Shown piece after piece: positions 20,448 to 36,926 of a stretch of DNA of 64,000 nt. Under the pieces are notes generated by a model. It saw only the letters and a list, made by a program, of their open reading frames with translations, did no database searches and was not told where the DNA came from. The number at the start of each line of letters is the position of its first letter. The stretch's first letter is position 1. Position numbers and translations under genes: made by a program. The stretch comes from Alphaproteobacteria bacterium MarineAlpha12_Bin1. Its GTDB lineage: Bacteria; Pseudomonadota; Alphaproteobacteria; UBA6615. The stretch lies in assembly GCA_002937505.1 (NCBI GenBank), contig PTJY01000002.1:62001-126000 (forward strand). The letters run 5' to 3'.

Positions 20448-20495
20448 GCGACAAATAGATACATTAGATAGACACAGAAAACCAGAAAAGACAAT

Positions 20496-21122
20496 TTAAT
20501 CACTAGCGCGTCGACTGGCCCCCGCTTGTATTACAAGTTGTACCAATGCTTCGTAAGGCTGAGCACCTACCACGCCATAACCATTAGAAACAAAGGTAGG
20601 AACACCAGTAACGCCGTACTCTCGTGACTTTTCCCAATCCTGATCAACAGACTCTTTAAAACTACGCTTATAGAGAACTTCTTTGGTTTCCTCTGAATTG
20701 AGACCAATCTTTTCAGCAAGCCCAACCAACACCTCTACGTCACCGATGTTCTTACCGTCAACAAAGTACGCTCTATAAAGCTTATCATGTATTACATGGC
20801 CCTCAGGCTGAGTTTCTGCCCAGGAACCCAATTCCTGCGCAAGTCTACTGTTGTAGGTGTGCGTTCGTTCTCCATAAGGAAGACCTTCAACCTCCATCAA
20901 ACCCTTCATTCGCTGATGAGCCTCCTCTGGATCATAGTCGCGACCAGAAAATAGATCTGACATGGACATACCTTTGGCAGGTGTATCAGGATGCAACGGA
21001 AAATGAATTAGCTTAATGGATATATCAAACTCCTGCCTTAAATTTTCAATACGCACGGTACTGAGATAACACCAGGGTCAAACATAATCACTAAATATCT
21101 CTACGGTAACTGGTTCGTTCAT
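20496..21122 (-). CDS. FrnE/DsbA-family oxidoreductase, probable selenoprotein (Sec15, UPWC)
   Basis: The gene reads from ATG 21122, 7 nt after a good AGGAG site, through an in-frame TGA at 21078-21080 to the stop at 20496. This gives 208 residues, normal for FrnE-type DsbA proteins. The TGA falls in FSDYV-U-PWCY, the first position of the CPWC redox motif, so Sec15 and Cys18 form the active pair. The cis-proline loop GVTGVPTFV is intact near the C-terminus. Without readthrough the protein would start at 21056 with no ribosome-binding site and no redox motif. A SECIS-like hairpin lies at 21046-21064. It is divergent from a CMD-like gene at 21191. A nonsense mutation is possible but unlikely given its exact position and two parallel cases nearby. 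Confidence 0.86.
21046..21064 (-). promoter_or_regulatory. SECIS-like hairpin of the FrnE-like selenoprotein gene
   Basis: Read on the minus strand, UCAGUAC pairs over 7 bp with GUAUUGA, enclosing the 5-nt loop CGUGC. The stem begins 13 nt after the UGA (21078-21080), and the second loop base is a G. This is the expected form of a bacterial selenocysteine insertion element bound by SelB: a short hairpin just downstream of UGA with a small G-containing apical loop. It is coding sequence at the same time. Confidence 0.75.
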
Positions 21123-21190
21123 CAAAAGTCTCCTTTAGAAAAATCATTGACTAAAGTATATATAATACAAAGAGTTTATAGGAGAAAAAA

Positions 21191-21706
21191 ATGGCAAGAA
21201 TTCCGTATAGCAATATGACAGGACTTGAACCTGATCTTAAAGAAGAGCTATCAAAACGTCCTGATGCAAACATATATCGAATGCTGGCTAATGGAGGCAA
21301 TGCGGCTCTTGGCTACCTCAAAATGGGTAGTGAAATAAGATTTAATGCTGTTTTAAGTCCAACATCGCGTGAACTAATAATCCTTCGCACGGGATCTTTA
21401 TGTAAATCAATATATGAACTCGACCATCACACAATAATTGCTCGTAATATTGGATTGGAAGAAACAAAAATTAATGCCGTAATTCATACCGGATCCAAAT
21501 CGGAAGTCTTGGATGATTTCGAGAAGTGCTTAATGATATTTACTGAAGAAACTGTAAAAGATGGAAAAGCAAGTGAAAAAAGCTTTTTCAATCTAGCTGA
21601 ATATTACAGCCACGAGGAATTGATAGAAACCACCTTACTTATAGGATTTTATATGCTCACCTCTCGTTTTTTACAAACTTTTAACGTAGACCTCGATGAA
21701 CATTGA
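21191..21706 (+). CDS. Carboxymuconolactone decarboxylase (CMD)-family protein
   Basis: This 171-residue all-helical CMD-like protein has the helix-turn segment SPTSRELIILRTGSLCKSIYELDHHTIIA near residues 58-85. The His in DHH corresponds to the conserved family His. The redox CxxC of AhpD is absent: a single Cys occurs, and no in-frame TGA is present. GGAG lies 6-9 nt before the ATG. It is divergent from the selenoprotein frnE gene, with a shared intergenic region of 68 bp, so the two may be co-regulated. It could be a lactone decarboxylase or hydratase-like enzyme, or a redox protein relative. Function unknown. Confidence 0.85.
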   Translation: MARIPYSNMTGLEPDLKEELSKRPDANIYRMLANGGNAALGYLKMGSEIRFNAVLSPTSRELIILRTGSLCKSIYELDHHTIIARNIGLEETKINAVIHTGSKSEVLDDFEKCLMIFTEETVKDGKASEKSFFNLAEYYSHEELIETTLLIGFYMLTSRFLQTFNVDLDEH

Positions 21707-21742
21707 ACCAAAAATTGAATGAATTTATAATAACTCATATAG

Positions 21743-23362
21743 CTAGCCTATAGCATCTTCAAGCACCATATCAGATCCTTTTTCCCCTATCATAATAGCA
21801 GGTGCATTAGTATTACCAGATATTAGCGTAGGCATAATGGAGGCATCAATAACTCTAAGGCCCTCTATACCATGAACTCGTAGTCTTTCATCGACAACAG
21901 CATTCTCATCATCTCCCATTTTACATGTACCCACAGGATGAAAACTAGTTCTACAGTTCTCTAAAATATATTCCAAAACTTCATCATAACTAAGGCAGTC
22001 CTTTCCAGGTTTATGTTCTCCTACGATGAATTGCCTCATAGCATTTTGGCTCATTATTTTTCTTACAGCCTGAACGCCTGCAACTAGGACATCACGATCC
22101 TTTCTTTCTGCCAAATAGTTTGGTTGTATCTCTGGAGCAGAAAATGGATCAGGTGACACAATTCTCAAATATCCACGACTCTCTGGCCTAAGCAAGGCAG
22201 TAACAATCGTGCACCCAGAAAAGTCACTAGCGATGAACCCACCAGCGCCCCCCGCACTTTCAGTACTATAAGGCATTATTTGAGCTTGAATATCAGGAGA
22301 GGCAGAATCAACATCCGCCTTAATAAAGCCTCCTGCATAGGAAGCGCCCCAAGCAAGTTCTCCTTTTCGTGACAATATATATTTTACGCCCGCAGCAATT
22401 CGACGAGAAAAGCTGTTTGCAACATCATTCGCCGTAAAAGGTTTATTGACCTTGTAAACAACAGGGCCATTCACATGATCTTGTAAATTTTCACCAACTC
22501 CTGGCAGGTTTTTTACGACCTCAACACCAAATCTTTGAAGTAGTTGAGATGGGCCTATCCCAGACAACTGAAGCAATTGGGGCGAATTATAGGCTCCTCC
22601 AGAAATTATTACCTCTCCTTCAGCTTTTGCCTGAAGCAACTTATTTCCTTTCTTATACTCCACTCCATTAGCCCGCAAACCATCAAATAATAAACGTGTG
22701 GCATGTGCATCAGTTATGACAACTAAATTGCCTCGTTTTCTTGCTGGCTTGAGGTAACCCACAGCAGTACTGCGACGTCTACCGTTATCTGTAGTCCACT
22801 GTGTATAACCAAAGCCTTCCTGTTGAGCTCCATTAAAGTCTGGATTTAATTGGTAACCAGCCTGAACGGCCGCCTCTAGATAAGCATCAGCGAGCGGGTG
22901 GGGCTCTGCGGGATCAGAAACCGTTAAAGGACCCCCTACGCCGTGAAAGTCATCCGAACCACGTTGTTGATCCTCAGATTTTATAAAGTAAGGCAATACA
23001 TCTTCATAACTCCAGCCCTCATTTCCAAGTTGTCGCCAATGATTGTAATCCTCAGCCTGGCCCCTGATATAAACCATGCCGTTAATAGAGCTTGTTCCGC
23101 CCAAGACTTTCCCTCTGGGTTGGCCTATGGACCTTTTTACCCACTCACTTCCGGGCGCTGTTTCATAGAGCCAATTAATTTTGGCGTTGGTAAAATGTTT
23201 TGCGTATCCTATTGGTATATGTATCCAAGGATTTTTATCCTCACCACCTGCCTCCATTAATAAAACTTTGTATCGACCAGTTTCAGTGAGCCTATTTGCT
23301 AGGACGCAACCGGCACTTCCGGCACCAATTATGATGTAATCAAACTTGCTGGATACTTCCAT
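21743..23362 (-). CDS. GMC family FAD-dependent oxidoreductase, second copy
   Basis: This 539-residue GMC oxidoreductase is closely related to the one at 5691-7301. FAD motif GAGSAG is at residues 13-18, and the PRGKVLGGTSSINGMVY signature is near residue 80. The C-terminal active-site blocks are HPVGTCKMG and SGNTNAPAIMIGEKG. Relatives include choline and alcohol dehydrogenases. It stands alone, tail to tail with the CMD gene and divergent from the SDR at 23465. The two GMC proteins probably have different alcohol substrates. Confidence 0.92.
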   Translation of the reverse strand: MEVSSKFDYIIIGAGSAGCVLANRLTETGRYKVLLMEAGGEDKNPWIHIPIGYAKHFTNAKINWLYETAPGSEWVKRSIGQPRGKVLGGTSSINGMVYIRGQAEDYNHWRQLGNEGWSYEDVLPYFIKSEDQQRGSDDFHGVGGPLTVSDPAEPHPLADAYLEAAVQAGYQLNPDFNGAQQEGFGYTQWTTDNGRRRSTAVGYLKPARKRGNLVVITDAHATRLLFDGLRANGVEYKKGNKLLQAKAEGEVIISGGAYNSPQLLQLSGIGPSQLLQRFGVEVVKNLPGVGENLQDHVNGPVVYKVNKPFTANDVANSFSRRIAAGVKYILSRKGELAWGASYAGGFIKADVDSASPDIQAQIMPYSTESAGGAGGFIASDFSGCTIVTALLRPESRGYLRIVSPDPFSAPEIQPNYLAERKDRDVLVAGVQAVRKIMSQNAMRQFIVGEHKPGKDCLSYDEVLEYILENCRTSFHPVGTCKMGDDENAVVDERLRVHGIEGLRVIDASIMPTLISGNTNAPAIMIGEKGSDMVLEDAIG

Positions 23363-23464
23363 TTTCTAGCCTTCATTTTTTAGTTTTTTTTATATAGCCT
23401 GTAATTATTTCAAAATAAACGTTAGTCTAAAGTTCGTTGAACGTACAGCATGGTGATAACTTTT

Positions 23465-24193
23465 ATGAGTAGACCAAAAGTAGCCCTAATTGTTGGCGCT
23501 GGAGATGCAACTGGCGGCGCAATTGCCAAACGATTTTCACAAGAGGGTTTCACTGTTTGTGTGACCCGCAGAAATGCAGACAAACTCAAGGACCTAGTCT
23601 CAGAAATTAAGGATCAGGGAGGAATAGTGCACGCCTTTGGTTCAGATGCGCGTCGGGAAGAACAGGTAATATCTTTGATAAGTGAAATCGAGAATGAAAT
23701 AGGTCCAATACAAATAGCGGTATATAATGTCGGAGGTAATGTAAAATTTCCTATAACAGAGACAACCTCCAGGGTCTACTTTAAGGTTTGGGAGATGTGC
23801 TCTCTCGGCGGCTTCCTAATGGGGCGTGAAGTGGCAAAAAAAATGCTAAATCGTGGTGAAGGAACGATTCTCTTTACTGGGGCTACCGCATCAATTCGAG
23901 GATCAAGCGGTTTTTCAGCATTTTCGGGCGGCAAACACGCATTAAGAGCTCTAGCCCAATCCATGGCTCGCGAATTATCACCCAAGGGAATTCATGTCGC
24001 ACATATCGTTATAGACGGAGCCATTGATACAGAGTTTATCAAAGAAATGTTCCCCAAGGCATACGCTTTAAAAGAACAAGACGGAATTCTTAACCCAGAG
24101 CATATAGCCGAAAATTATTTGATGATCCACAATCAACCACGAAGTTCATGGACTTTTGAACTGGATTTGCGCCCGTGGATTGAAGATTGGTAA
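23465..24193 (+). CDS. SDR family protein with Tyr-to-Phe change in the active site
   Basis: A short-chain dehydrogenase fold of about 242 residues. ATG 23465 gives MSRPKVALIVGAGDATGG; an in-frame ATG at 23450 is the alternative. The cofactor motif is GAGDATGGAIA and the NAG-like turn is YNVGG. The normal YxxxK pair reads FSGGK, so the catalytic Tyr is Phe and only the Lys remains. The following ALAQSMARELSPKGIHVAH and IDGAIDT resemble a known SDR subgroup that also has Phe there, so it may be a natural variant rather than a broken enzyme. It is followed after 37 bp by an HCCA-isomerase-like gene. Confidence 0.85.
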   Translation: MSRPKVALIVGAGDATGGAIAKRFSQEGFTVCVTRRNADKLKDLVSEIKDQGGIVHAFGSDARREEQVISLISEIENEIGPIQIAVYNVGGNVKFPITETTSRVYFKVWEMCSLGGFLMGREVAKKMLNRGEGTILFTGATASIRGSSGFSAFSGGKHALRALAQSMARELSPKGIHVAHIVIDGAIDTEFIKEMFPKAYALKEQDGILNPEHIAENYLMIHNQPRSSWTFELDLRPWIEDW

Positions 24194-24230
24194 TTTGTCG
24201 TCTGAACAATACCTCACTTAGGAAACTCTA

Positions 24231-24833
24231 ATGGAAAAAACGGTTGAATTTATATTTGATGTAGTTAGCCCAACAGCTTATATCGCGTATCGCCGATTGC
24301 CTGAAATTATAGAGCGAACTGGGGCGACCATTATTTGGAGTCCAGTATTTCTTGGGGGAGTAATGAATGCCAGCGGCAACAAGCCTCCGGGAACCGTAGC
24401 AGCAAAAGGACGATATATGAACAGAGATATGGAGCGTTGCGCTGAACGTTACAAAATAGAGTTTTCTCTCAATAAACATTTTCCAGTAAACACACTATCA
24501 CTGCAAAGAATAGCTGTAGGTCTGAACAACAATGATGAACATGAAGAATTTCTGAAATTTATTGATGTTTGCTTTAAAGCCATATGGGTCGATGGCAAAA
24601 ACATGGGAGACACTGATATCAGTTCTGACGTGTTAGCTGATGCCGGGTTTGAAACGGGGACTCTAATGAATTTAGCAAATGATTCTACTATCAAGGAAAA
24701 ACTTAAATCTTTAACTAATAACGCGGTTCAGAGAGGTGTTTTTGGCGCCCCAACATTTTTTGTAGACCGAGAGATGTATTTTGGACAAGATCGCCTTGAT
24801 TACGTTGAAATCGCCTTATCAAGACAGCAATAA
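24231..24833 (+). CDS. 2-hydroxychromene-2-carboxylate isomerase-like (DsbA/GST-kappa fold) protein
   Basis: This 200-residue thioredoxin-like protein has the N-terminal active-site segment FDVVSPTAYIAYRR, where Ser replaces the first Cys as in HCCA isomerase and GST kappa. It also has a helical insertion with VNTLSLQR and the C-terminal cis-proline loop GVFGAPTFFVDREMYFGQDRL. In naphthalene-type pathways the enzyme isomerises a ring-cleavage product using glutathione. It follows the SDR at 23465 in the same direction and converges within 6 bp on the cupin gene. A second copy is at 32415-33053. Confidence 0.9.
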   Translation: MEKTVEFIFDVVSPTAYIAYRRLPEIIERTGATIIWSPVFLGGVMNASGNKPPGTVAAKGRYMNRDMERCAERYKIEFSLNKHFPVNTLSLQRIAVGLNNNDEHEEFLKFIDVCFKAIWVDGKNMGDTDISSDVLADAGFETGTLMNLANDSTIKEKLKSLTNNAVQRGVFGAPTFFVDREMYFGQDRLDYVEIALSRQQ

Positions 24834-24839
24834 TAGAAC

Positions 24840-25763
24840 TCAGCCAAAACTAAACCCTATTGTACGCAAATGATAATAAAGCCCTCCATCTTGAACGACT
24901 AGGCTTAGCATCATTTCATCACCCTCGTTGTGATGCTCATGTAAATGAGAAGGCGGAGTTATCATGATAGCGTATTGATGCCAATCAACTTTTTCCCCTT
25001 CGATGACCGAGTATACGTTTTTGCTTTGAATGGGTAGTGTTAAAGCTACAGAATTATGACGATGTGGTCGTTGCACTTCATTAGGGTCAAGCGAATTCAT
25101 TGCAAGGGCTATAGATGGATGGATATCCATCATTTTTTCTCTTTTCTCACTGCTAAAATGTAATGCAAGCCCCGAAACATTTGGATCAGCTTTTTGCTGG
25201 TCATGTACTATGGCCATCTGGTGTTTAATCTCAGAACTTTTGTACAATGCAGCTTGAGTTGGTGCCTTTTCTGGGAGAGGAGCATCTAATTTATGAAAAT
25301 CTAATTCAGGCTCATTTGTTACCTGAAATAATACAGCTACTTCCTGGTTTCCTATTAGTTCGGTCTCTCCTCCACCTGGAAGAGCAAACACATCCCCCTT
25401 TGACCAACTGATCATTTCTCCTGATTTTGAAGCACTACCCGATCCAGTAATAACATAATAAATCTCTCCCGACGCGTTAAATTGACCAGAGAGAGACTCT
25501 CCAGGGAGAATTCTGGCATAACGACCTAAAAGGAGAGGCGTGGTTGCGGGATAGTCAAAACCCATTTTCTTGCCAATATCCAGACTAACCCAACTGGTGG
25601 GGGTGTCTCCTCCCATTGCTTGCTCAATTTCATCTACGAAAACATGCTTAGGAACTTCAGGTCGTTTAACAGTAAAAATATTAGCTGGACTGTCGTATCG
25701 CGCACGGCTTTCAAAAACCGATTTAACGTCTTTTGATGTCATGTTTTCTTTTGAACCGTCCAT
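24840..25763 (-). CDS. Two-domain cupin protein (gentisate dioxygenase-like)
   Basis: This 307-residue protein has two cupin barrels. The N-terminal barrel holds GSASKSGEMISWSKGDVFALPGG. The C-terminal barrel has QRPHRHNSVALTLPI and ITPPSHLHEHHNEGD, with His clusters suited to a bound metal. The layout resembles gentisate 1,2-dioxygenase and related bicupins. It is the last gene of a minus-strand run that includes the MDR oxidoreductase and the CMD selenoproteins. It may be a ring-cleaving or sensing protein; activity unproven. Confidence 0.82.
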   Translation of the reverse strand: MDGSKENMTSKDVKSVFESRARYDSPANIFTVKRPEVPKHVFVDEIEQAMGGDTPTSWVSLDIGKKMGFDYPATTPLLLGRYARILPGESLSGQFNASGEIYYVITGSGSASKSGEMISWSKGDVFALPGGGETELIGNQEVAVLFQVTNEPELDFHKLDAPLPEKAPTQAALYKSSEIKHQMAIVHDQQKADPNVSGLALHFSSEKREKMMDIHPSIALAMNSLDPNEVQRPHRHNSVALTLPIQSKNVYSVIEGEKVDWHQYAIMITPPSHLHEHHNEGDEMMLSLVVQDGGLYYHLRTIGFSFG

Positions 25764-25860
25764 AACTTTTCTATCCTATCATCTGGATCTTTTAATTTGT
25801 CATCTTTGAAACATACTATTTCGATATTGAAGATCATACAATTCTTTAACGTTGAATGAG

Positions 25861-26841
25861 TTAAGGCTTTAGAACTAATTTTCCCATCACCTCCCTGGAG
25901 TCGATTATTTCGTGCGCTAGCCGTGCTTCAGAAAGAGGCAAACGCTTGAATATAGGAGGCTTTAAATTCCGGACTGAAAATTGATCAACTACGTTTTGAA
26001 CAATCTTTCGCCTTTTTTCTATATCGTTATCATAACAATGCCACGAAAAACAACGAACAGCTAGGCTTTTTCCAGCCCTGGCTCGTAATTCAGAAAATAA
26101 TTCTTTTTCAGGTAACCCTGCCAAAGCATTATAAGAAATAATCATTCCCAAAGGTGCAAGCATATCCAGAGTATTTACAAAGTTCGGCCCCACAAGCTGA
26201 TCAAAAACAACGTCAACTCCCCTTCCCTCTGTGAGCTCAATAACCCGAGAAATTACCTCGTCTTTTGAATAATTTATTGCTGAAGAAGCGCCATATTCTG
26301 TTACAAACTTACATTTCTTTTCAGAGCTAACACCCGCAAAAATAGAAATATCTTCTGATCTGCATAAATCAATAATAGCTGTACCAAGCCCTCCAGCGGC
26401 GCCATTAACGTAAGCATACTCTGGCTTCTTTCCTCCAAACGCCTCAAATAATAATGACCACGCAATTACGTAATTGGGAATACTAACTGCATCTTCTAGA
26501 TCAATATTATTTGGCAAAGGAGTGACTAGTGATGTCGAAACCGAATTAAATTCAGCATAGCGTCCTCCACCTGTGCCAAAAACTAATACAGGCTGGCCTA
26601 CTTCTAGGTTTTTGATCCCTCGACCAATTTTTTCTATGTGGCCACTCATCTCGTTACCTAATATAGCTGGCAAAGGCGGAGACCATCTATAAACACCCTT
26701 ACGCATAAGTACATCAGGTTTACCCACGCCAATTGAGTGAGCACGAACCAGCACCTCCCCAAAACCAGGCTCTGGAATTGGTAATTCTATCACTTCAAGA
26801 ACTTCAGGCCCTCCAGGAGCAGAAAACTGTATAGCTCTCAT
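25861..26841 (-). CDS. MDR family oxidoreductase (quinone oxidoreductase-like, zinc-free)
   Basis: This 326-residue medium-chain dehydrogenase/reductase starts MRAIQFSAPGGPEVLEVIELP. It has the NADPH-binding VNGAAGGLGTAIIDL near residue 145 and lacks the structural zinc cysteines, as in quinone oxidoreductases. GGGAG sits 9 nt before the ATG. It starts 38 bp after the end of the CMD selenoprotein at 26880 and is probably transcribed with it. It could supply or consume reducing equivalents for that module, but this is inference. Confidence 0.9.
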   Translation of the reverse strand: MRAIQFSAPGGPEVLEVIELPIPEPGFGEVLVRAHSIGVGKPDVLMRKGVYRWSPPLPAILGNEMSGHIEKIGRGIKNLEVGQPVLVFGTGGGRYAEFNSVSTSLVTPLPNNIDLEDAVSIPNYVIAWSLLFEAFGGKKPEYAYVNGAAGGLGTAIIDLCRSEDISIFAGVSSEKKCKFVTEYGASSAINYSKDEVISRVIELTEGRGVDVVFDQLVGPNFVNTLDMLAPLGMIISYNALAGLPEKELFSELRARAGKSLAVRCFSWHCYDNDIEKRRKIVQNVVDQFSVRNLKPPIFKRLPLSEARLAHEIIDSREVMGKLVLKP

Positions 26842-26879
26842 CCAATAAACTCCCTAAATAACAAACATAGACCTTGGCA

Positions 26880-27503
26880 TTACTCCGCTGCCATGGACTG
26901 CAATGATAAAGGTGCTGCCCCATAAAGTCGTTCTGATTCTTCCTGACCAACCAAACGACCATCTGGCGAATACATAGGGTAGAACTTTAATGTTCCAAAG
27001 AATGTGTGATACCCCGCATTAAAACATAAAAAGATACCTATCTGAGTAATTTCATCTTCACTGAGATGTTTGCGTAAATTCTCATAATATTCGGCATCTA
27101 AAGAATCAGGATCCTTCATTACCAAATCTACATGATTCAGTATTGCTTTCTCCTTATCATCAAGATGTTCACTATCTGCATAATTATTTATGCCATCGTC
27201 AATAAGTTCTTCTGTAAGTCCGTCCCGCTTCGCCGAAGCAGATCGTACATTACCTCAATAGCTACAGTGCGCCCGACGGGACAGAGAAACACGCATAATT
27301 TCCTTAATTTTATGACTAAGATTTCCTGAGTTAAATGATACTGCCCAAGCTTCATAGTTAGCTATAGCAAGATCAATGTTATGCCCTAACATCGCCAAAG
27401 CACCCGGATCAGGCGCTTTGTGTTCTAGGCTTCGTTCGATATAGGGCTTAAGTTTAGTCTTTTTAAGCTCTTCTATATCAAGCATAGTAATATTTGGTGC
27501 CAT
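26880..27503 (-). CDS. AhpD/CMD-like selenoprotein, copy 1 (Cys80-Ser-Tyr-Sec83)
   Basis: One 207-residue protein is encoded if the in-frame TGA at 27255-27257 is read as selenocysteine. ATG 27503 has AGGAGG 5 nt upstream. The active-site segment reads RRAHCSY-U-GNVRSASAK, a CxxU version of the CxxC redox pair of AhpD-type CMD proteins. The frame stays open across the 43 codons between the TGA and the next ATG, and the C-terminal half keeps the CMD helical pattern (ILNHVDLVMKDP, FNAGYHTFFG). A SECIS-like hairpin sits at 27224-27242. The paralogue at 28170-28793 has the same TGA at the same codon. The likely role is a peroxide- or disulfide-reducing enzyme served by the nearby thioredoxin. Confidence 0.88.
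26920..27215. repeat. 296-bp perfect direct repeat, unit A (with 28210-28505)
   Basis: This segment is identical base for base to 28210-28505, at an offset of 1290 bp. It covers most of the C-terminal half of the first CMD selenoprotein gene. Mismatches flank it at 26919 and 27216. The central part of the two genes (upstream of the TGA) is strongly diverged, so the identity reflects recent conversion or partial duplication rather than general slow divergence. Confidence 0.95.
27224..27242 (-). promoter_or_regulatory. SECIS-like hairpin, CMD selenoprotein copy 1
   Basis: On the minus strand UCUGCUUC pairs with GAAGCGGG over 8 bp (three G-U pairs), closing a GGC loop whose first base is G. The stem begins 12 nt after the UGA at 27255-27257. 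The size and spacing match the hairpins of the other two selenoprotein genes. Confidence 0.78.
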
Positions 27504-27576
27504 CATTTCCTCCTTCGATCCGTTTAAATAGTACTTCAGGGATCCATCTTATCATACTAGCATGATGTACAACTCA

Positions 27577-27606
27577 AAAAGCCGGCGGGAACAGCCGACG
27601 GCTTTT
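27577..27606 (-). terminator. Strong rho-independent terminator, probably bidirectional
   Basis: AAAAGCCG pairs with CGGCTTTT; after one G-A mismatch three more GC pairs close a 6-base loop. With an A-run on one side and a T-run on the other it can end transcripts in both directions. It lies between the CMD paralogue ending at 27643 and the selenoprotein starting at 27503. The downstream selenoprotein therefore probably has its own promoter or receives only readthrough. Confidence 0.85.
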
Positions 27607-27642
27607 GCAGAGAGTTTAACAATATTTTTGAACTTGAAAGAC

Positions 27643-28170
27643 TTATTGAGAACTGCCAAACGACCTCATGGCCATATGTGCCCCATGGTAAAGAGCAATG
27701 AATGCTCCAAGTTCCATAACCTGAGCCTCGGTATAATGCTTCTTCAACTCGTCATAGAGTTCCTTGTCTACTTTGCTCGAGTCTAGGAACATTTGATCAG
27801 CGTAACGAAGAGCTACTTTCTCTGCTTCGGTAAAAAAATCTGAATCCTCATAATCTCCTGAGCCAGCGTCAATTACCTCTTCAGTAAGCCCCATGTCCCT
27901 TGCCTTGGTTGAACGTAAACCAGAAGAATATGAGTCTTCCGAAAAACGGGCTAACTGAATACGAATAATCTCTTTCAATCTGTGGTCAACATTACCTTCA
28001 GTAAAGTTCAAAAGCATTACTTTCAATAAAGCTTTAGCCTGTTCAGGCATCCTTGCTACTATACGAGGAAATTCACCACCCGGAACTCCAAGTTCTTCAC
28101 ACTTTTCAACGAGTTCCCTTAGTTCTGGATCAGTGATCTCATTTATGTCTAAAGGCTTTATTACTGTCAT
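27643..28170 (-). CDS. CMD-like paralogue without redox residues (Asp/Ser in place of Cys/Sec)
   Basis: This 175-residue CMD-like protein aligns with the two flanking selenoproteins. The active-site segment reads SEDSYSSGLRSTKA, where Cys80 and Sec83 of the paralogues become Asp and Ser, so no thiol or selenol pair remains. Its ATG overlaps the TAA of the upstream selenoprotein gene (TAATG), indicating tight coupling and probably a fixed ratio with it. It may be a structural or regulatory partner in a mixed oligomer. It has lost its redox function, or it works by another chemistry. A strong terminator follows the gene. Confidence 0.85.
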   Translation of the reverse strand: MTVIKPLDINEITDPELRELVEKCEELGVPGGEFPRIVARMPEQAKALLKVMLLNFTEGNVDHRLKEIIRIQLARFSEDSYSSGLRSTKARDMGLTEEVIDAGSGDYEDSDFFTEAEKVALRYADQMFLDSSKVDKELYDELKKHYTEAQVMELGAFIALYHGAHMAMRSFGSSQ

Positions 28171-28793
28171 TACTCAGCTGCCATGGACTGCAGTGATGAA
28201 GGTGCTGCACCATAAAGTCGTTCTGATTCTTCCTGACCAACCAAACGACCATCTGGCGAATACATAGGGTAGAACTTTAATGTTCCAAAGAATGTGTGAT
28301 ACCCCGCATTAAAACATAAAAAGATACCTATCTGAGTAATTTCATCTTCACTGAGATGTTTGCGTAAATTCTCATAATATTCGGCATCTAAAGAATCAGG
28401 ATCCTTCATTACCAAATCTACATGATTCAGTATTGCTTTCTCCTTATCATCAAGATGTTCACTATCTGCATAATTATTTATGCCATCGTCAATAAGTTCT
28501 TCTGTGAGTCCGTCCCGCTTCGCCGAAGCAGATCGTACATTGCCTCAATAACTGCAGTGTGCCTGTCGGGACATAGAAACTCGAATAATTTCCTTTAATT
28601 TATGATCTAAACTTCCGGTTCCGAAGGCCGTTGTCCAGGCTATATACATCGACTCGGCCAGGTCAATATTGTGGCCCATCATAGCATGAAAACCCGGATC
28701 CGGTGCTTTGTGCTCTAGGCTTTGTTCTATATAGGGCTTAAGTTTTGTCTTTTTAAGCTCTTCTATATCTAGCATAGTAATATTTGGTGCCAT
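28170..28793 (-). CDS. AhpD/CMD-like selenoprotein, copy 2 (Cys80-Ser-Tyr-Sec83)
   Basis: A 207-residue protein with an in-frame TGA at 28545-28547 read as Sec83. ATG 28793 is preceded by AGGAGA at good spacing. The active site is RQAHCSY-U-GNVRSASAK. The length and Sec position equal those of copy 1 at 26880-27503. The two proteins differ mainly in residues about 38-70, just before the active site (GHNIDLAESMYIAWTTAFGTG here). It is followed with a one-base overlap by a redox-dead paralogue and preceded by a thioredoxin gene 38 bp upstream. This arrangement suggests that thioredoxin reduces the Se-S bond of the CMD protein. Two parallel nonsense mutations at the same codon are much less likely than Sec. 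Confidence 0.88.
28210..28505. repeat. 296-bp perfect direct repeat, unit B (with 26920-27215)
   Basis: This is the second unit of the perfect direct repeat, inside the C-terminal half of the copy 2 selenoprotein gene. High similarity continues on both sides to the gene end and to just beyond the TGA, with scattered differences. Recombination between the units would delete the intervening redox-dead paralogue and the terminator. Confidence 0.95.
28514..28532 (-). promoter_or_regulatory. SECIS-like hairpin, CMD selenoprotein copy 2
   Basis: The sequence and fold are identical to the hairpin of copy 1: an 8-bp stem with a GGC loop, starting 12 nt after the UGA at 28545-28547. Nearby bases have diverged between the copies (for example the codons just before and after the UGA), while the hairpin is unchanged. 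Confidence 0.78.
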
Positions 28794-28831
28794 ATTGCTT
28801 CTCCTATTTTTATCTGCAGATAATTCTTCCA

Positions 28832-29161
28832 CTATGCGTAAGATTCAACTAGTTTTTTTAATACCTGCCTTCTATCTACCCCTGTCCTTGTTTCAATAAC
28901 TTCCCCGTTTTTAACAAATAACAAGGTTGGAGTAGAACGAATACCAAAACGATCTAAAAGACTAGTATTTTCTTCTGCCTTAACAGTGCCTATCCTAACC
29001 CCTTCAGGCAAATCGGGAGCCAGTTGCTTAAGGACCTTTGTCAACTGTATGCACGGTACGCAAGAATCAGACCAAAAATCAATCACCGTCAGTCCTCTGT
29101 GACTCATAACCCTACTATCAAAATTTTGCTCACTAAACTCTGCAAAATTATGGCGATTCAT
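28832..29161 (-). CDS. Thioredoxin-like protein (CVPC active site)
   Basis: This thioredoxin-fold protein has 109 residues. ATG 29161 was preferred over the upstream TTG because GGGGA lies 6 nt before it. The active site is DFWSDSCVPC, with Cys34 and Cys37, and the cis-proline is in IRSTPTLLFVKNG. The usual WCGPC is changed to SCVPC, so its redox potential or partner range may differ from housekeeping thioredoxin. No signal peptide, hence cytoplasmic. It is the first gene of the minus-strand run leading into the CMD selenoproteins and is the natural candidate for their reductant. Confidence 0.92.
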   Translation of the reverse strand: MNRHNFAEFSEQNFDSRVMSHRGLTVIDFWSDSCVPCIQLTKVLKQLAPDLPEGVRIGTVKAEENTSLLDRFGIRSTPTLLFVKNGEVIETRTGVDRRQVLKKLVESYA

Positions 29162-29290
29162 TATTTTCCCCAAGCTAGAAAAGTATTTGCTAGTATTCTA
29201 AACATCAAAGTTTAAATTAACCTAAGCTGAGCGCATTGTGCAATCCCTAATCACTTAATAACAGTCAAGTAGGATGCGAGGAATCTAATC

Positions 29291-31114
29291 ATGTCTAATA
29301 AGGATAAACCTAAACTTCGATCACAAATTTGGTTTGACAACCCTAACAACAGAAAAATGACGGCATCTTACATAGAGCGTTACCTTAATTTTGGAATTAC
29401 TCGAAAAGAATTGCAGTCGGGTAAACCGATAATTGGAATTGCTCAAACCGGGTCAGATCTTTCTCCATGTAACCGTCATCACATAGAATTAGCTAAAAGA
29501 GTTCGGGATGGAATTGTTTCAAATGGGGGGATATGTTTTGAATTTCCAGTTCATCCTATTCAGGAAACTGGAAGGCGCCCAACACCAGCCCTAGATAGAA
29601 ACTTGGCCTACCTCGGACTTGTTGAGATTTTGCACGGATACCCAATAGATGGCGTAGTTTTAACTATCGGCTGTGATAAGACTACTCCCGCCTGTCTGAT
29701 GGCTGCCGCTACGCTTGATATTCCTGCGATAGCGTTGTCAGTTGGCCCAATGCTTAATGGATGGTTTCGGGGTGAAAGAACTGGATCTGGAACAATTCAA
29801 TGGAAAGCAAGAGAACTTTGGGCCACTGGAGAAATCAATGACGAAGAATTTACAGATTTAATAGCCTCGGCTGCACCATCAGTGGGTTATTGTAATGTCA
29901 TGGGTACAGCTACAACCATGAACTCCCTGGCTGAAGCTCTGGGAATGCAACTCCCAGGTTCAGCATCTATTCCAGCCCCTTACAGAGAAAGGGGACAAAT
30001 TGCATATGAAACCGGTCAGAGAGCGGTTGAGATTGTGAATAAAGACCTTAAACCATCAGATATTATGACCCGTAAAGCATTTGAAAATGCCGTAGTTGTT
30101 AATACCGCAATTGGAGGATCAACAAACGCACCAATTCATCTAAACGCAATAGCTCGACACATAGGGGTAAACTTAAACAATGATGATTGGCAAAAAATCG
30201 GTTTTGACACCCCCCTACTAGTGAATCTGCAGCCCGCTGGGCAATACTTAGGCGAAGATTACCATCGGGCAGGAGGTGTTCCCGCAGTAATTGGCGAACT
30301 TATCAATGCCAAAAAATTGCCACACCCCGACGCCATGACTGTAAATGGATGCACTATAGGAGAAAATTGTTCCAACTCACGTATAAATGATCACCTTGTA
30401 ATAAAGTCAGTTTCAGATCCTCTATCTAAAGATGCTGGGTTTATAAACCTAAAGGGAAATTTATTTGATTCAGCCATTATGAAAACAAGTGTAATTTCTG
30501 ATGAGTTTCGTTCTCGTTACTTGTCTAACCCAGACGACCCAAATGCATTTGAAGGACGGGCGATTGTATTTGATGGACCCGAGGATTATCATGATCGTAT
30601 CGAGGACCCTTCACTAAATATTGACGAGAATTGTCTGTTGTTTATGCGTGGAACTGGCCCAATCGGTTATCCTGGTGGAGCTGAAGTCGTAAACATGCAA
30701 CCCCCTGCAGAACTGCTAAAAAAGGGAGTTCATTCTCTTCCATGTATAGGTGATGGACGTCAATCTGGAACGTCAGGATCACCTTCCATTTTAAACGCTT
30801 CGCCTGAAGCAGCCGCTGGAGGAGGATTAGCCCTGATAAAAACTGGAGACCGTGTTAGAATAGATCTCAACAAAGCTGAGGCTAACGTACTGATTTCTGA
30901 AGAAGAAATTGAAACTAGACGTAAAAAGCTTTTTGACAAAAAAGGTTATAACTATCCAGACGATCAAACCCCTTGGCAATCTATTCAACGGTCCATAGTA
31001 GACCAATTTGATCAGGGCATGGTTCTGAAGCCGGCAATAAAGTTTCAAAAAGTAGCTAGGGGAGGAGATCCTGACTCTCCAGTAACCAAAAATGTTCCAA
31101 GGGACAACCACTAA
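29291..31114 (+). CDS. IlvD/Edd family dehydratase, sugar-acid type
   Basis: This 607-residue dehydratase is of the dihydroxy-acid/6-phosphogluconate dehydratase family. Cluster cysteines are visible in LSPCNRH (Cys60), GCDKTTPAC near residue 130 and GYCNVMGTA near residue 200, consistent with a [2Fe-2S] enzyme. The N-terminus ([11 protein letters not shown]) and the [19 protein letters not shown] block are typical of the xylonate/arabinonate dehydratase branch, not of biosynthetic IlvD. It would convert a sugar acid to a 2-keto-3-deoxy acid. GAGGAA precedes the ATG. It is divergent from the thioredoxin gene and stands alone. Confidence 0.9.
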
Positions 31115-31172
31115 TGTAAGTATAATTAAAGCAGGTAGTAGACCGATCTAACTTTCAACTGGGACAGGAATA

Positions 31173-31676
31173 TTAGCCACGCTGAACCAAATCTTGCCCT
31201 TCGACCCGGATATAATCTTCCTCAAACCCGAATGTTTCTCCGGGTTTTAGAAGGCCAATTCCAGGAATGTGGTTCACTTCAATTCTGATGCCATCAGGGT
31301 CTTCAAAAAGCACGTAATAGTAACCTGGCGCCCATTCTCTTTGTTCAGGGCCTCTCACGATTGGTGCCCCTAGATCGATTACAAGTTTCGCTGTCTTCTC
31401 AACATCTTCTCGATTTCTTGCTCTTAAGCAAAGATGGTGCAAACCAACACGGTATTGTTGAAATCTTTCATTATCAAACTCTGGATCACATTTTCTAATC
31501 CCAATAGCGGTTCTTGCACCCACATGATAAAATAGATCCGGGCCATCATGCACCAGTTTCATGCCAAATTCAGGCAAAAGTCTAGAGTAAAATTCTCGAG
31601 CTAGACTAAATTGACTTACTGTCAAAATCACATGTGCCATTCCATTAATGGCAATTGTAGACTCTTTTCCACTCAT
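31173..31676 (-). CDS. VOC (glyoxalase/extradiol dioxygenase) family protein
   Basis: This 167-residue protein has paired beta-alpha-beta-beta-beta units. It starts with GMAHVILTVSQFSLAREFYSRLL, a His suited to metal binding, and ends with YYVLFEDPDGIRIEVNHIPG. GLHHLCLRARNREDV supplies a further His. The fold serves glyoxalases, dioxygenases and fosfomycin-resistance-type thiol transferases. Its ATG overlaps the GST stop (ATGA), so the pair may handle electrophilic or ring-cleavage metabolites with glutathione. Substrate unknown. Confidence 0.88.
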   Translation of the reverse strand: MSGKESTIAINGMAHVILTVSQFSLAREFYSRLLPEFGMKLVHDGPDLFYHVGARTAIGIRKCDPEFDNERFQQYRVGLHHLCLRARNREDVEKTAKLVIDLGAPIVRGPEQREWAPGYYYVLFEDPDGIRIEVNHIPGIGLLKPGETFGFEEDYIRVEGQDLVQRG

Positions 31677-32335
31677 TTTGTTGTCATCGCACTTCCTAGT
31701 GACTTCACAGCACTGGCACGTCCTGGTGAAGGGGGAATATTTAGCCCGCGTTCACAGGCCGGACGATCACGCATTTGTTCCATCCACCTCTCCAAGTGAA
31801 ATAATCCCTGCGTGGGAACCCTAGCCCATCTATGGCTCCGTATCCAAGACCAATTTGATATGTCGGCAATAGAAAAGTTGCCTGCCAACCACTCATTATT
31901 TGAAAGCCTACTATCTAAAACAGTATATAGTCTTCTGGTTTCATTATGGTAACGTGCTCTAGCCGCAGGCTCATCTGAGTCAAAATAGCGCTCGAAAACT
32001 ACTGCCTGTCCCTGCATAGGTCCAATACCACTCGCCTGAAACATTAACCATTGTATAACTTCATGTCGAACTGGTCCATCGGCAGGCAAAAGTTTCCCTG
32101 TCTTCTCAGCTAAGTAAAATAAAATTGCATTCGAATCAAAAACTGTTAGGCGGTTTTCATTATGATCAACAATTACAGGAATACGACCGTTAGGATTCAT
32201 AGCTAGAAAATCAGCTGAGCTTTGCTCACCGGCAGCAAGATTTATAAGGTTAACAGTATACTCCAACCCTAATTCTTCAAGCATCATTGCTACCTTCCAG
32301 CCATTAGGTGTTGGAGAAGTGTATAGATCAATCAT
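31673..32335 (-). CDS. Glutathione S-transferase
   Basis: This protein of about 220 residues begins at ATG 32335, 6 nt after GGAG; the longer reading from 32431 lacks homology. The thioredoxin-like domain has MIDLYTSPTPNGWKVAMMLEEL, the cis-proline MNPNGRIPVIVD, and the glutathione-contacting FDSNAILFYLAEKTG. A helical domain follows. It resembles bacterial GSTs of the YfcG/YghU group (Thr/Asn-type active site). It forms a two-gene unit with a VOC protein and is divergent from an HCCA isomerase, a set that fits glutathione-dependent handling of aromatic catabolites. Confidence 0.9.
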   Translation of the reverse strand: MIDLYTSPTPNGWKVAMMLEELGLEYTVNLINLAAGEQSSADFLAMNPNGRIPVIVDHNENRLTVFDSNAILFYLAEKTGKLLPADGPVRHEVIQWLMFQASGIGPMQGQAVVFERYFDSDEPAARARYHNETRRLYTVLDSRLSNNEWLAGNFSIADISNWSWIRSHRWARVPTQGLFHLERWMEQMRDRPACERGLNIPPSPGRASAVKSLGSAMTTK

Positions 32336-32414
32336 GGTTGACTCCAATTTCTTACTAAATATAAAGTTCACCCAGGTGATTGATTTGTCAACTCGCGTAC
32401 CAACGAAGGAAAAG

Positions 32415-33053
32415 ATGAGCTCAATAATCACATCTAAATGGTATTTTGACTTTATTTCTCCATTTGCCTACCTTCAGCTAGCTCAATTTTCAAAATTACC
32501 CAATAATCTAAAAATCACACCCGTTCCTGTTGTCTTTGCGGGGTTACTTAAACATTGGGGACAGCTTGGGCCGGCGGAAATTCCTTCAAAACGCCGCTTC
32601 GTTTATAGGTTCTTTAAATGGCAAGCAGCCCAAAATGGTTTACCTTTTACAATGCCACCTAAACATCCCTACAATCCACTACCTTCTCTTAGGCTTTGTG
32701 TTGCGGCAGGAGCAGGAATTGATCAGGTTACTGCCATTTTTAACCTTATTTACGGAGAAGGTCTGCAACCTGACTCTGCTGAAGGCATTGAAGCTATGGC
32801 TAGGGCTGTCTCAATAAATGACCATGCATCAATTCTATCAAATGAAAAGGTCAAGCAATCACTTCATGCCAATACCGAAATGGCCATAGCCGAGGGGGTT
32901 TTTGGTGTTCCTACCTTCACTGTAAGAAGTGAACTTTTTTGGGGTAGTGATGCGACAGAGATGATGCAGGATTATATTAAAGATTCTGAGTTGTTCGAAA
33001 CAACAGAAATGAAACGCATATCAAACATGCCTATGGGTTTGATCCGGCCTTGA
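32415..33053 (+). CDS. 2-hydroxychromene-2-carboxylate isomerase-like protein
   Basis: This protein of about 212 residues starts at ATG 32415 after GAAGGA. The active-site segment WYFDFISPFAYLQL carries the Ser typical of HCCA isomerase/GST-kappa relatives. The C-terminal cis-proline loop is GVFGVPTFTVRSELFWGSDATEMM. It shares a 79-bp divergent promoter region with the GST-VOC pair. It probably acts in glutathione-assisted isomerisation of an aromatic breakdown product. Confidence 0.9.
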   Translation: MSSIITSKWYFDFISPFAYLQLAQFSKLPNNLKITPVPVVFAGLLKHWGQLGPAEIPSKRRFVYRFFKWQAAQNGLPFTMPPKHPYNPLPSLRLCVAAGAGIDQVTAIFNLIYGEGLQPDSAEGIEAMARAVSINDHASILSNEKVKQSLHANTEMAIAEGVFGVPTFTVRSELFWGSDATEMMQDYIKDSELFETTEMKRISNMPMGLIRP

Positions 33054-33121
33054 CCTGTTATGTGCACGTTTAAGTAAGAAACGGACGTATTCCTTATTAT
33101 GATGCCTACTTGTGCTATAAA

Positions 33122-34375
33122 TTACCCAGTGAGAGAACCGTCTAAATATGCCCTCAAATGCTTACTTAGAAAGCGAGCATCGTCACCAGCACCGTCAATT
33201 AGAGACGATTTACGCTTACGTAAAAACTGCATCCCTAAAAGATACATACCAGGATGTTCCACTATGCCACCGTTATGTCTTATTTCACCTTTGTGGTTTA
33301 GAACCGGAACGTCTAACCAAGACAGATCTGGACGAAAGCCTGTTGCCCAAATTATACTCTTAACTTCTCCGCTTCTTATATCTATAGCCAAAGGTGGTGA
33401 CTCATCCACCTGGGTGGGTTTAAATCGCTCAGGATTATCAATTTCCCCGTTAAGGCAGTTTTTTTCCGTCCACTCATCAATGCTGTCTAAAAGACGATCC
33501 ATTTTTAGATCAGCAAGTTTTGTAACATTTTTCAGGGAGCCAGAGATCTGAAGTGAACTCTCGTTAATGCCTGCAACTCTACCTACTAATTTAATCCCAA
33601 TAGAAGACAAATGATTTAAGTCCAGAATAATAGGGTTCTTGCATCCTGTAAGTTGCAGAGATGGAACGCGACGAGCCCGGCGCAAGTCATCAATTTCATC
33701 ATAACTTTCATCAAGAAGTCCCGAAGCATCCATCCACCATTTTATATCTCTACCACGATAAAAGCGCGGCACACGCACATGTTCTCCTACCGACAAGGTA
33801 ACAGGCCTCCCTGAAAGATGAATTTCATTTGCAAGCTGAACCCCTGTCGCTGAAGCCCCCACGACCACTACCCCGCCCTGAGGTAATTGATCAGGATTTC
33901 GATATTGAAACGGAGTAAAGGTCTCCAGTTTAGGTTCTAAATTCTCTGCTATTTTTGGAACATTAGGAATATTACAGGCACCACTCGCGATTACTAAAGT
34001 TTTGCATTCCCATTCTCCTTGAGACGTCAGTAATTGGAAACCATACTCAGTTGGCCTTACTTTGAGCACATTCGTATTAGACTGCACAGGAGCAGAGATA
34101 AAACTCGCATAGTCGTTAATAAACTGGATAACTTCAGACATACTTCGATATCCATTAGGGTCACCCCCTTTATAAGAATAGCCGGGTAAACGACTCTGCC
34201 AATTAGGTGTTAGAAGACGCAGCGAATCCCAGCGTTCTGTGCACCAGGAATTCGCTACTTGACCTCGTTCAAGCACAATATGATCAACGCCTAAATCACT
34301 TAGGCATTTACTCATAGCTAGACCAGCGTGACCCGCCCCAATTATGACCGTGGTCGTTTTACGCAAAGAGCCCAT
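33122..34375 (-). CDS. Flavin-dependent monooxygenase-like (FMO/CzcO-type) oxidoreductase
   Basis: This 417-residue flavoprotein has two dinucleotide-binding motifs: FAD GAGHAGLAMS at residues 13-22 and an NADP motif VVGASATGVQLA near residue 180. ATGFRPDLSWLD near residue 350 is the usual ATG motif linking the domains. Relatives oxidise amines, ketones or indoles, or act as putative potassium/cation-linked flavoproteins. It follows the OsmC-like gene by 31 bp on the same strand, so the two may form an operon linked to oxidative stress. Confidence 0.88.
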   Translation of the reverse strand: MGSLRKTTTVIIGAGHAGLAMSKCLSDLGVDHIVLERGQVANSWCTERWDSLRLLTPNWQSRLPGYSYKGGDPNGYRSMSEVIQFINDYASFISAPVQSNTNVLKVRPTEYGFQLLTSQGEWECKTLVIASGACNIPNVPKIAENLEPKLETFTPFQYRNPDQLPQGGVVVVGASATGVQLANEIHLSGRPVTLSVGEHVRVPRFYRGRDIKWWMDASGLLDESYDEIDDLRRARRVPSLQLTGCKNPIILDLNHLSSIGIKLVGRVAGINESSLQISGSLKNVTKLADLKMDRLLDSIDEWTEKNCLNGEIDNPERFKPTQVDESPPLAIDIRSGEVKSIIWATGFRPDLSWLDVPVLNHKGEIRHNGGIVEHPGMYLLGMQFLRKRKSSLIDGAGDDARFLSKHLRAYLDGSLTG

Positions 34376-34406
34376 GATGAAATAACTAAACTAATTTCTG
34401 AACTCT

Positions 34407-34967
34407 TTAGTTAACATCCACGGTAACATTTGTAGGGTTAGTTACTATATCGTATACAGCTGATCTCTTTTGCGATTGAGCAACTAACGCGCTAATTTCA
34501 TCTGCTGTTGCGTCGGCATCAATATCATAATGTACCCTAATGCCATTGAAACCATTCCGAACTTCAGCATCTATACCTAATATTCCCTGAATATCCATGC
34601 CCCCCTCAATCGTCGCCGTACAAGAATGAAGTTGGATGTCTCGATGCTGGGCAACAGCAGCAATGCCGGCGGTCAAACAACTTGCCAGGCTAACAAGAAC
34701 AATCTCCACTGGTGTAGCCCCATTGTCTTCAGCTGCAAAAGTTTCTGGGTGATCAGCATCAAAACTAAATGATGTTTTATGTGAGTGTTCTTCCCCAAGA
34801 CCATAATACCCTTCAACAACTGTTTTACTATGTGTCCCTTTTTTCCACTCACAGCTTGCCCTCCATGAAAACTGGGCAGCTTCCGGCGCATCACTAAGCA
34901 CTTCTCTGGCTCCCAACAAAGCCTCAACATTCACTCCATTATTTACGGTTGATTCAGAATTTGTCAT
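34407..34967 (-). CDS. OsmC/Ohr family protein
   Basis: This 186-residue protein shows the OsmC fold, with SLASCLTAGIAAVAQHR in the central helix. The first conserved Cys is present. The second redox Cys of peroxide-reducing OsmC/Ohr is not obvious at its usual place, although LHSCTATIEG holds another Cys soon after. Members reduce organic hydroperoxides or are uncharacterised. No in-frame TGA was found. It leads a two-gene unit with the flavin monooxygenase-like gene. Confidence 0.88.
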   Translation of the reverse strand: MTNSESTVNNGVNVEALLGAREVLSDAPEAAQFSWRASCEWKKGTHSKTVVEGYYGLGEEHSHKTSFSFDADHPETFAAEDNGATPVEIVLVSLASCLTAGIAAVAQHRDIQLHSCTATIEGGMDIQGILGIDAEVRNGFNGIRVHYDIDADATADEISALVAQSQKRSAVYDIVTNPTNVTVDVN

Positions 34968-35447
34968 AACTTTTCTCCGTTATATTAATAAGACTAAAAT
35001 TTCCTATTCGTTGATCGAATCAATTTTCTCTTGGGTCCGGAAATCAATAGAAATGACAGCTTTAAACTAATACACGAATAAAGCGCTTCGTGTCAGACAT
35101 TATAAAAAAAGCCATATTTAGCCTTAAATGTCATTCCTATATTTATTTTTTCATGAGAGTTCGATTCCCAAGCCTAGTTTTGGGCCCGTAGAATCTATTT
35201 CCTACGGCGCTTTAGCAATTGGTAACGCGGTTGCAAGCTGCCCCATCAAATTTCCGCGTATTTCTATGCAATTTTATCGCTAGATATATATACAATTACA
35301 TAAGTAAAAAAATGACCTACTTATAAATACTACACTAATAAAAATGTAGATATATATTATTTACATTTTATTGTTCTGTCAATCTATGAAAGCCCAATAA
35401 ATACTGTACTTGATAATTAAATAGCAACTAATTTATGGATCAATACC
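34968..35447. other. 480-bp gene-free stretch with hairpins and tRNA-like fragments
   Basis: No convincing ORF is present. It holds an ACACGAA/TTCGTGT hairpin near 35072-35093, a CCCAA/TTGGG hairpin at about 35167-35184 and a CCGTAG/CTACGG hairpin at about 35186-35207. Two patches look like pieces of tRNA: GTTCGATTCCC (about 35159-35169, T-loop-like) and TAGCAATTGGTAACGC (about 35213-35228, D-loop-like), followed by GCGGTTGCAAGCTGC, which can form an anticodon-like loop. They are in the wrong order for a tRNA, and the T-stem does not pair. It may be tRNA debris or an unrecognised structured RNA. The downstream part is very AT-rich. Confidence 0.4.
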
Positions 35448-36314
35448 TTAAGAAAGATCAAACCCACGAGAACTTAAAAAACTCCTAAGGTGATCCAGTT
35501 CGCTAGGCTCAGCTAAACGACGAGAGGTATTGTCTGACCAGCCGTAAAAAGACTTTGTGCCATATTTTTCAGTCTTTATTTGTCTTGCTATTGGACGATC
35601 CTCATGCCGACGCCGATCGTACTCATTAATTTCAGCCACTAAATTTTTGTCGCAGTACTCATTTTTATGAACAACCACTGCGGGTGGTAGCCTTTGCGAA
35701 ACATCGCGCTTTTCGTCTGGCCAACCAATGGCCAAGCCAACCAAAGGAAAAACACCTTGGGGTAAATTAAATAGATCCGCTGTTTCAGAAAGTCTTTTAC
35801 GCACCTGACTTATACAGCAACAACCAAGCCCTACTGCCTCGGCAGCCATAATTATTGATTGCATAGCCAAAGAAGAGTCAGTTATTGAATTTGCTAAGCT
35901 ATCTAAGGTGTTTTGTGAATACTTATATCCTTTCATTTCGCATAGGCGAGCTGCTCTCCTCAAATCACCACAAAAAACCAACAACATTGGAGCAGAAGCC
36001 ATCCATGGAGTATCACATAGCTTAGCAAGAGACTCTTTCTTAGCTTTTTCAGACAAATCAATTATCGAATATTGCTGTAAATCCGATTTGGCAGAAGCCG
36101 ATTGTGCACACGCGAGTAAAAGCGTACGAATTTCTTCATTAATTTTCCGCTTGGAATACTTCCTAATGCTTTTCCGAGATAGAATACGATCCAGTCTAAT
36201 CAAGTTTTCTACTGAGACTCCATGACTTTTTTGTAGATTATCGATTTCTAAATCAGTCTTTAAACCAAATCTACGAGTAAGACTTAAACGGACCTGTTCT
36301 TTGATTTCTGACAA
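35448..36314 (-). CDS. Nitroreductase family protein
   Basis: This 288-residue FMN-type nitroreductase-fold protein has the N-terminal RILSRKSIRKYSKRKINEEI (FMN phosphate-binding Arg-Ser-x-Arg), a central SLAMQSIIMAAEAVGLGCCCISQVR, and the GVFPLVGLAIGWPDEKRDVSQRLP segment. It has about 35 extra N-terminal residues and an extended C-terminal tail compared with small nitroreductases. It would use NAD(P)H to reduce nitro compounds, quinones or enones. It is 29 bp downstream of the cupin genes on the same strand and may be transcribed with them. Confidence 0.88.
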   Translation of the reverse strand: MSEIKEQVRLSLTRRFGLKTDLEIDNLQKSHGVSVENLIRLDRILSRKSIRKYSKRKINEEIRTLLLACAQSASAKSDLQQYSIIDLSEKAKKESLAKLCDTPWMASAPMLLVFCGDLRRAARLCEMKGYKYSQNTLDSLANSITDSSLAMQSIIMAAEAVGLGCCCISQVRKRLSETADLFNLPQGVFPLVGLAIGWPDEKRDVSQRLPPAVVVHKNEYCDKNLVAEINEYDRRRHEDRPIARQIKTEKYGTKSFYGWSDNTSRRLAEPSELDHLRSFLSSRGFDLS

Positions 36315-36343
36315 AGTTATTCCCTCTTAGGTAAAAATTGTAT

Positions 36344-36865: not shown

Positions 36866-36926
36866 GCTTTACCTCCCTGAAATAAAATTGCCTATCAAAT
36901 AAATTCACCCATTAAGAAAATTGGTT

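Follow-up and report, generated by a model that had tools for sequence, protein, structure and literature searches.

A predicted AhpD-like selenoprotein gene and its paralogue lacking both redox residues

The locus raises the question of whether an in-frame TGA on its minus strand ends a gene or is read as selenocysteine (Sec) within a single CMD/AhpD-like protein. Standard gene calling splits genes of this kind, referred to here as Sec-CMD, in two, and the ORFs on either side of the codon then seem to be unconnected. The window, here meaning the whole 64 kb stretch of DNA that was analysed, holds two such genes and several associated features (Table 1). Sec-CMD copy 2, the paralogue at 27643-28170 (-) and the upstream thioredoxin gene were all absent from the original prediction.

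Table 1. Features of the Sec-CMD locus in window coordinates
Feature	Coordinates	Strand	Basis
Sec-CMD copy 1, predicted 207-aa CMD/AhpD-like selenoprotein, C-S-Y-U, TGA 28545-28547	28170..28793	-	Read-through translation, Pfam CMD, homologues
SECIS apical stem-loop of copy 1 (predicted), 7 pairs, loop GGC 28522-28524	28515..28531	-	Frozen codons, pair 17/31
Paralogue subunit (predicted), CMD fold, D-S-Y-S replacing CxxU	27643..28170	-	ORF, motif, linkage, tree, model
Sec-CMD copy 2 (predicted), TGA 27255-27257	26880..27506	-	Same build as copy 1
SECIS apical stem-loop of copy 2 (predicted)	27225..27241	-	Sequence identical to copy 1 element
Thioredoxin, WSDSCVPC, 38 nt before Sec gene	28832..29173	-	Pfam Thioredoxin, 67.7 bits
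Terminator-like hairpin and T run, 44 nt past paralogue	27581..27599	-	3 such sites found vs 1.8 expected

The reading frame and its TGA column

With TGA read as Sec (U), minus-strand positions 28793-28170 give a protein of 207 residues, MAPNITMLDIEELKK...SRQAHCSYUGNVRSASAKRDG...SMAAE, containing a single TGA. The start codon is preceded by an AGGAG ribosome-binding site (ATAGGAGAAGCAAT-ATG). The original prediction had joined the same protein across the TGA, placed this codon at the second Cys of a CxxC pair (HCSY-U-GNVRS) and credited the start with a good ribosome-binding site. Translation and the upstream sequence bear out each of these points, the strand (-) having been left unstated. The plus strand of 28170-28793 is non-coding, and a reading on that strand was dropped because of the many stops throughout it. 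Just seven TGA codons in the window are flanked by at least 60 open codons on each side, and only the two in CMD genes give one protein family across the TGA. The context of the copy 1 TGA is far beyond chance.

A scan of genome contigs using peptide patterns that exclude the Sec site returned 76 loci (38 from Alphaproteobacteria, 21 from Betaproteobacteria, 10 from Nitrospinota and a few others, by their recorded labels). The 'Chloroflexi' label of L108 is doubtful, as this locus is nearly identical to L110 of Nitrospinaceae, and so is the 'Gammaproteobacteria' label of L100, which has the same contig range as L102 (a Rhodospirillaceae MAG). All 75 loci that cover the Sec column carry TGA there, in Alpha- and Betaproteobacteria, Nitrospinota and Tectomicrobia. 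The same is true of 20 of 20 matches of at least 54% identity within 18 related genomes, and of 16 of 16 matches in Nitrospinota, where 16 of 18 genomes have the family. Among 385 Alphaproteobacteria, Sec-CMD is confined to the window's own taxonomic family, from which the sole Cys-type match at E 1e-25 or better (L142) also comes. Virus and plasmid collections were searched as well and gave no relative of Sec-CMD.

The closest Cys proteins (CEFC/CEYC-GNQRS) are found in three genomes (L142, L173 and L174) and branch outside the clade formed by Sec-CMD and its paralogue. Together with the TGA homologues, they indicate that the column is Cys or Sec. The original prediction had made its case depend on this point, and both residues were seen: TGA in all close homologues and Cys in the CEFC-GNQRS sister group. 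No Cys form was found inside the Sec clade among the 75 loci covering the column, and this clade appears to use Sec only.

CMD genes with an in-frame TGA were also noted elsewhere. One is a distant member in the same genome (L126, G000:C1:562081-562605, minus strand; motif CKYU), and others (L178 and L179; motifs CHFU and CNLU) occur in genome G050, another alphaproteobacterium. The TGA match at G000:C7:269180-269542 was set aside as not convincing as a CMD protein.

The SECIS hairpin and the decoding machinery

A SECIS-like hairpin just after the TGA, as originally proposed, exists in copy 1 (CTGCTTC-GGC-GAAGCGG), with conserved pairs starting 13 nt and the apical loop GGC lying 20 nt past the codon. 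Bacterial SECIS elements have a G in a small apical loop (PMC1088965), and the hairpin fits this pattern both in its loop and in its position soon after the TGA. Its codons are synonymously frozen. Past the TGA, codons +7 to +9 (TCG GCG AAG) show zero synonymous variation in 78 distinct sequences, and again in the 80 of a larger set, while codon +6 is GCT in 77 of the 78, with one exception. For comparison, 52 other conserved codons have a mean normalised synonymous entropy of 0.81 and a minimum of 0.55. Pair 17/31 is T-A, C-G or T-G in 78 of 78 sequences and is unbroken in all 80 of the larger set. On the tree this pair yields 6 independent contrasts, with 3-4 in agreement, 0 against and 2-3 passing via T-G (sign test p 0.125-0.25). 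Because phylogeny leaves only about six independent contrasts, the covariation is consistent, yet alone not significant.

The folding energy of the copy 1 hairpin is not better than that of shuffled sequences (z -1.03 and 0.06), and that of the copy 2 hairpin is moderately better (z -2.27). A scan of the window against Rfam at gathering thresholds gave no match, so support for the SECIS is necessarily comparative. On this comparative footing the hairpin is a functional bacterial SECIS, and its frozen core provides a clean marker for finding more members.

The original prediction also looked to selA, selB, selC and selD in the same genome. The host genome (2.34 Mb, 100% complete, with the window at C5:62001-126000) carries all of this machinery on the window's contig: selA (592 bits), selB (464.6 bits), a SelD domain (282 bits) and tRNA-Sec (72.1 bits, a call with which ARAGORN agrees). 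selA, selB, tRNA-Sec and the Ndh-SelD fusion lie within 18 kb. SelB scores above cut-off in 17 of the 26 other genomes with the Sec-CMD family, and five of the nine without a SelB match have a tRNA-Sec of at least 66 bits. One or the other is thus above cut-off in 22 of 26. The four genomes with neither are all MAGs or a SAG, and their lack is probably explained by incompleteness, their completeness not being stated. In L050, L063 and L104, selA or selB is located within a few kb of the Sec-CMD gene.

Further ORFs with an in-frame TGA accompany these genes. In the window's own genome, a PrdB/GrdB-like reductase ORF beside selD (L016:15432-16664, minus strand) scores 118 bits against TIGR04483 (cut-off 300) and is another likely selenoprotein near the sel genes. 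A PrdB-like ORF with an in-frame TGA also lies directly upstream of Sec-CMD at L063:2592-3974 (+).

A true stop, with the gene then being a pseudogene or coding for two short, separate proteins, would account for the two ORFs of the standard reading. It is highly improbable given a TGA that occupies one column in 75 of 75 homologues from several phyla, a conserved downstream half, frozen SECIS codons and intact sel genes. The frame would also be open if the TGA were read as some other amino acid (e.g. Trp, code 4), and unspecific read-through belongs to the same reading. However, 8 of 53 window ORFs of at least 150 residues end in TGA, which indicates that this codon works as a stop here. In addition, the column is TGA, or Cys in the sister group, and never TGG, and both tRNA-Sec and SelB are present, so that this reading can practically be discounted. 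Both readings were rejected on these grounds. From sequence evidence, 28170-28793 (-) very probably encodes a genuine selenoprotein with a redox role. SelB with Sec-tRNA would decode the TGA as selenocysteine, guided by the SECIS hairpin that follows 13 nt later.

The paralogue, the second copy and the gene neighbourhood

The paralogue sits between copies 1 and 2, and its ATG overlaps the TAA of copy 1 by one base. At the first-Cys column 69 of 70 paralogue sequences have Asp, and at the Sec column the residue is Phe (63) or Ser (7). The neighbouring Glu, Arg and Ser are kept. The Pfam CMD score of 20 is just under 23, yet the protein is homologous to the Sec protein. Its structural model (pLDDT 90.8) has Bmp8 as best fold match. 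In IQ-TREE analysis the Sec clade (97/86) and the paralogue clade (100/99) are separate and are joined at 99/91, which implies that one old duplication made the pair before its spread.

Of the 71 loci with sufficient sequence, 69 have the paralogue directly downstream of the Sec gene. The two genes overlap by one or four bases in 23 of 68 cases, and in 47 of 68 they either overlap or the paralogue starts no more than 12 nt past the stop. Both exceptions to the pairing, L047 and L113, belong to the window's own genus. In L047 the 5' half is copy 1-like (93% vs 80%) and the 3' flank is that of copy 2, as expected if the paralogue had been lost by recombination between near-identical halves, or if the repeat had collapsed in assembly. 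In same-genus genomes (L047:4001-4760, L113 and L118) the Sec gene is single or contig-broken, through deletion between repeats or assembly collapse.

A pairing that is almost universal, the overlap of the two genes and their shared origin suggest that Sec protein and paralogue probably form a hetero-oligomeric complex. The alternative that the paralogue is an independent enzyme, kept close only through shared regulation, draws on the one-third or so of loci where 16 to 139 nt separate the genes and on one relative without the paralogue. It seems less likely, as the pairing holds in 69 of 71 loci over distant lineages though other neighbours vary, overlaps of one or four bases occur in 23 of 68, and the pair dates from one old duplication. 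A complex with the paralogue is the preferred reading; L047, and copy 2 of the window, which has no paralogue of its own, indicate that the Sec protein does not strictly need this partner in every case.

Copy 2 is located 0.7 kb beyond copy 1. From the TGA onward the two copies differ by 6 mismatches in 378 nt and share 296 identical bases consecutively. Before the TGA their DNA is 76% identical, with 62 of 81 residues in common. Near-identical 3' halves combined with diverged 5' halves suggest recent 3' gene conversion between two older copies, which would most simply explain how copy 2 came to be homogenised with copy 1 from the TGA onward.

Upstream of the Sec gene, a thioredoxin gene is found in 18 of 75 loci, mostly in closer relatives and in some Burkholderiales. 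Its product is the likely reductant of Sec-CMD. The terminator-like hairpin past the paralogue is a weak candidate for the end of a Trx - Sec-CMD - paralogue unit, possibly setting copy 2 apart. A common metabolic neighbourhood was sought across the loci, and the paralogue alone proved constant. The remaining neighbours form lineage-specific sets (FAH/aminotransferase; SDR/HMGL/cupin; IlvD/QOR/cupin). Window positions 20000-37500 are densely packed with genes of small-molecule catabolism, including DsbA-type isomerases, GST, cupins, glyoxalase-type proteins, an IlvD-type dehydratase and SDR. A further CMD-family gene, with CxxC missing from its usual place, is located at 21191-21706 (+).

Proposed chemistry and comparison with known systems

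Against Pfam CMD (PF02627, gathering threshold 23) the Sec proteins score 31.3 bits (copy 1) and 23.3 bits. Against TIGR01926, the model given for a published AhpD-like selenoprotein, copies 1 and 2 reach 34.4 and 36.5 bits, below the cut-off of 81.8. NF053654, 'YciW-related (seleno)protein' (GroundWater_YciW equivalog), is the best NCBIfam match of the Sec protein and also of the paralogue; at 42.4 and 60.9 bits (cut-off 310) neither is a member. For every NCBIfam model that it matched, Sec-CMD scores under the cut-off.

The peroxidatic residue of AhpD is its second Cys. The CxxU of Sec-CMD aligns to the column of AhpD Cys133, and the product would be a CMD-fold thiol/selenol oxidoreductase in which Sec (residue 83) replaces the second, reactive Cys of CxxC. 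The selenol may attack an electrophilic substrate, an activated small molecule such as an organic hydroperoxide. The conserved first Cys (Cys80) would act as resolving thiol and close a selenenylsulfide, which the thioredoxin encoded just upstream would reduce. The paralogue, having the same fold without both redox residues (D..F/S), may be a structural or substrate-shaping subunit, and the two proteins would form a mixed ring. Sec-CMD is most likely a CMD reductase that uses a selenol and acts together with the redox-dead paralogue, where we infer both the partnership and the substrate.

AhpD of M. tuberculosis uses Glu118, His132, Cys133 and His137, and hexamers or trimers are common among AhpD-like proteins (PMC3141380). 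Sec-CMD resembles it in the CMD fold, the CxxC pair and the Glu118 equivalent, E68, 12 residues ahead of the first Cys. However, when Sec-CMD was tested for the Glu-Cys-His-Cys-His relay, equivalents of the proton-relay residues His132 and His137 were missing, their places being taken by invariant Tyr82 and Arg87. With these replacements AhpD chemistry is not transferable unchanged and peroxidase activity is not assumed. A hydroperoxide is named as substrate only tentatively.

The fold matches of the Sec model are AhpD-like proteins, with Bmp8 among the top ones. In Bmp8 the active thiol takes bromine off a brominated pyrrole, and this enzyme has been compared to thyroid deiodinase. By profile, the debrominase (PDB 6ohi, 6ohj) is the closest solved relative (6ohi, E 5.7e-12), and its CMYC is aligned to the Sec motif. 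It differs in using Cys only, in its identity of ~20% and in lacking the GNVRS core. Another reading, rather improbable, is a two-component selenoenzyme whose selenol attacks a small organic molecule reductively, e.g. in Bmp8-like dehalogenation, and does not remove peroxide; it would have an Arg where AhpD has its relay His and no Cys version within the clade. Little probability is likewise given to a Sec-dependent reductive dehalogenase or similar small-molecule reductase, Bmp8-like and not a peroxidase. The profile and fold matches to Bmp8, including the best match of the paralogue, point this way, as do marine nearest relatives and neighbours of aromatic-catabolism type (cupin, DsbA-type isomerase, GST, glyoxalase-type). 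On the other side, similarity to Bmp8 at only ~20% is common to AhpD-like proteins of other roles, neighbour genes vary between lineages, and no halogen context is evident for the members from groundwater and lakes or for those of Nitrospinota. A Sec subunit that stays paired with a redox-dead copy of itself offers a model of a selenoenzyme with two components that can be tested.

Sec-CMD adds a well-supported selenoprotein clade, with no Cys form found inside it. According to its authors, deep-Sep, a predictor from 2025, may miss selenoproteins without Cys homologues (PMC12013277). No account of the Sec-CMD/paralogue pairing was found in a literature search of incomplete coverage. AhpD-like CxxU selenoproteins as such were reported in 2005 and 2008 (PMC1088965, PMC2398784) and are listed in a 2026 review, and the original prediction was right that they are known from marine metagenomes. 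Its description of the CSYU form as uncharacterised stands for function and fails for the kind of protein, which may already have been counted as AhpD-like 2 of GOS.

The accessible portions of the Sargasso Sea and GOS surveys make no mention that we found of the invariant CxYU-GNVRS-SAK core or of a redox-dead paralogue, and they give each family many Cys homologues, in contrast to the Sec-CMD clade, where none was found. The proteins they describe share with Sec-CMD the CMD domain, CxxU with Sec at the second Cys, an origin in marine bacteria (PMC1088965, PMC2398784) and a bacterial SECIS whose small apical loop contains a G. GOS also includes one adjacent pair of selenoproteins, Prx-like 1 and AhpD-like 2 (PMC2398784). 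In three Burkholderiales loci (L059, L063 and L074) a Prx-like selenoprotein of UxxC type (GHWUPYC) immediately follows Sec-CMD and the paralogue. This circumstantial likeness, by way of the Prx-like neighbour, suggests that the Sec-CMD family may overlap with GOS AhpD-like 2.
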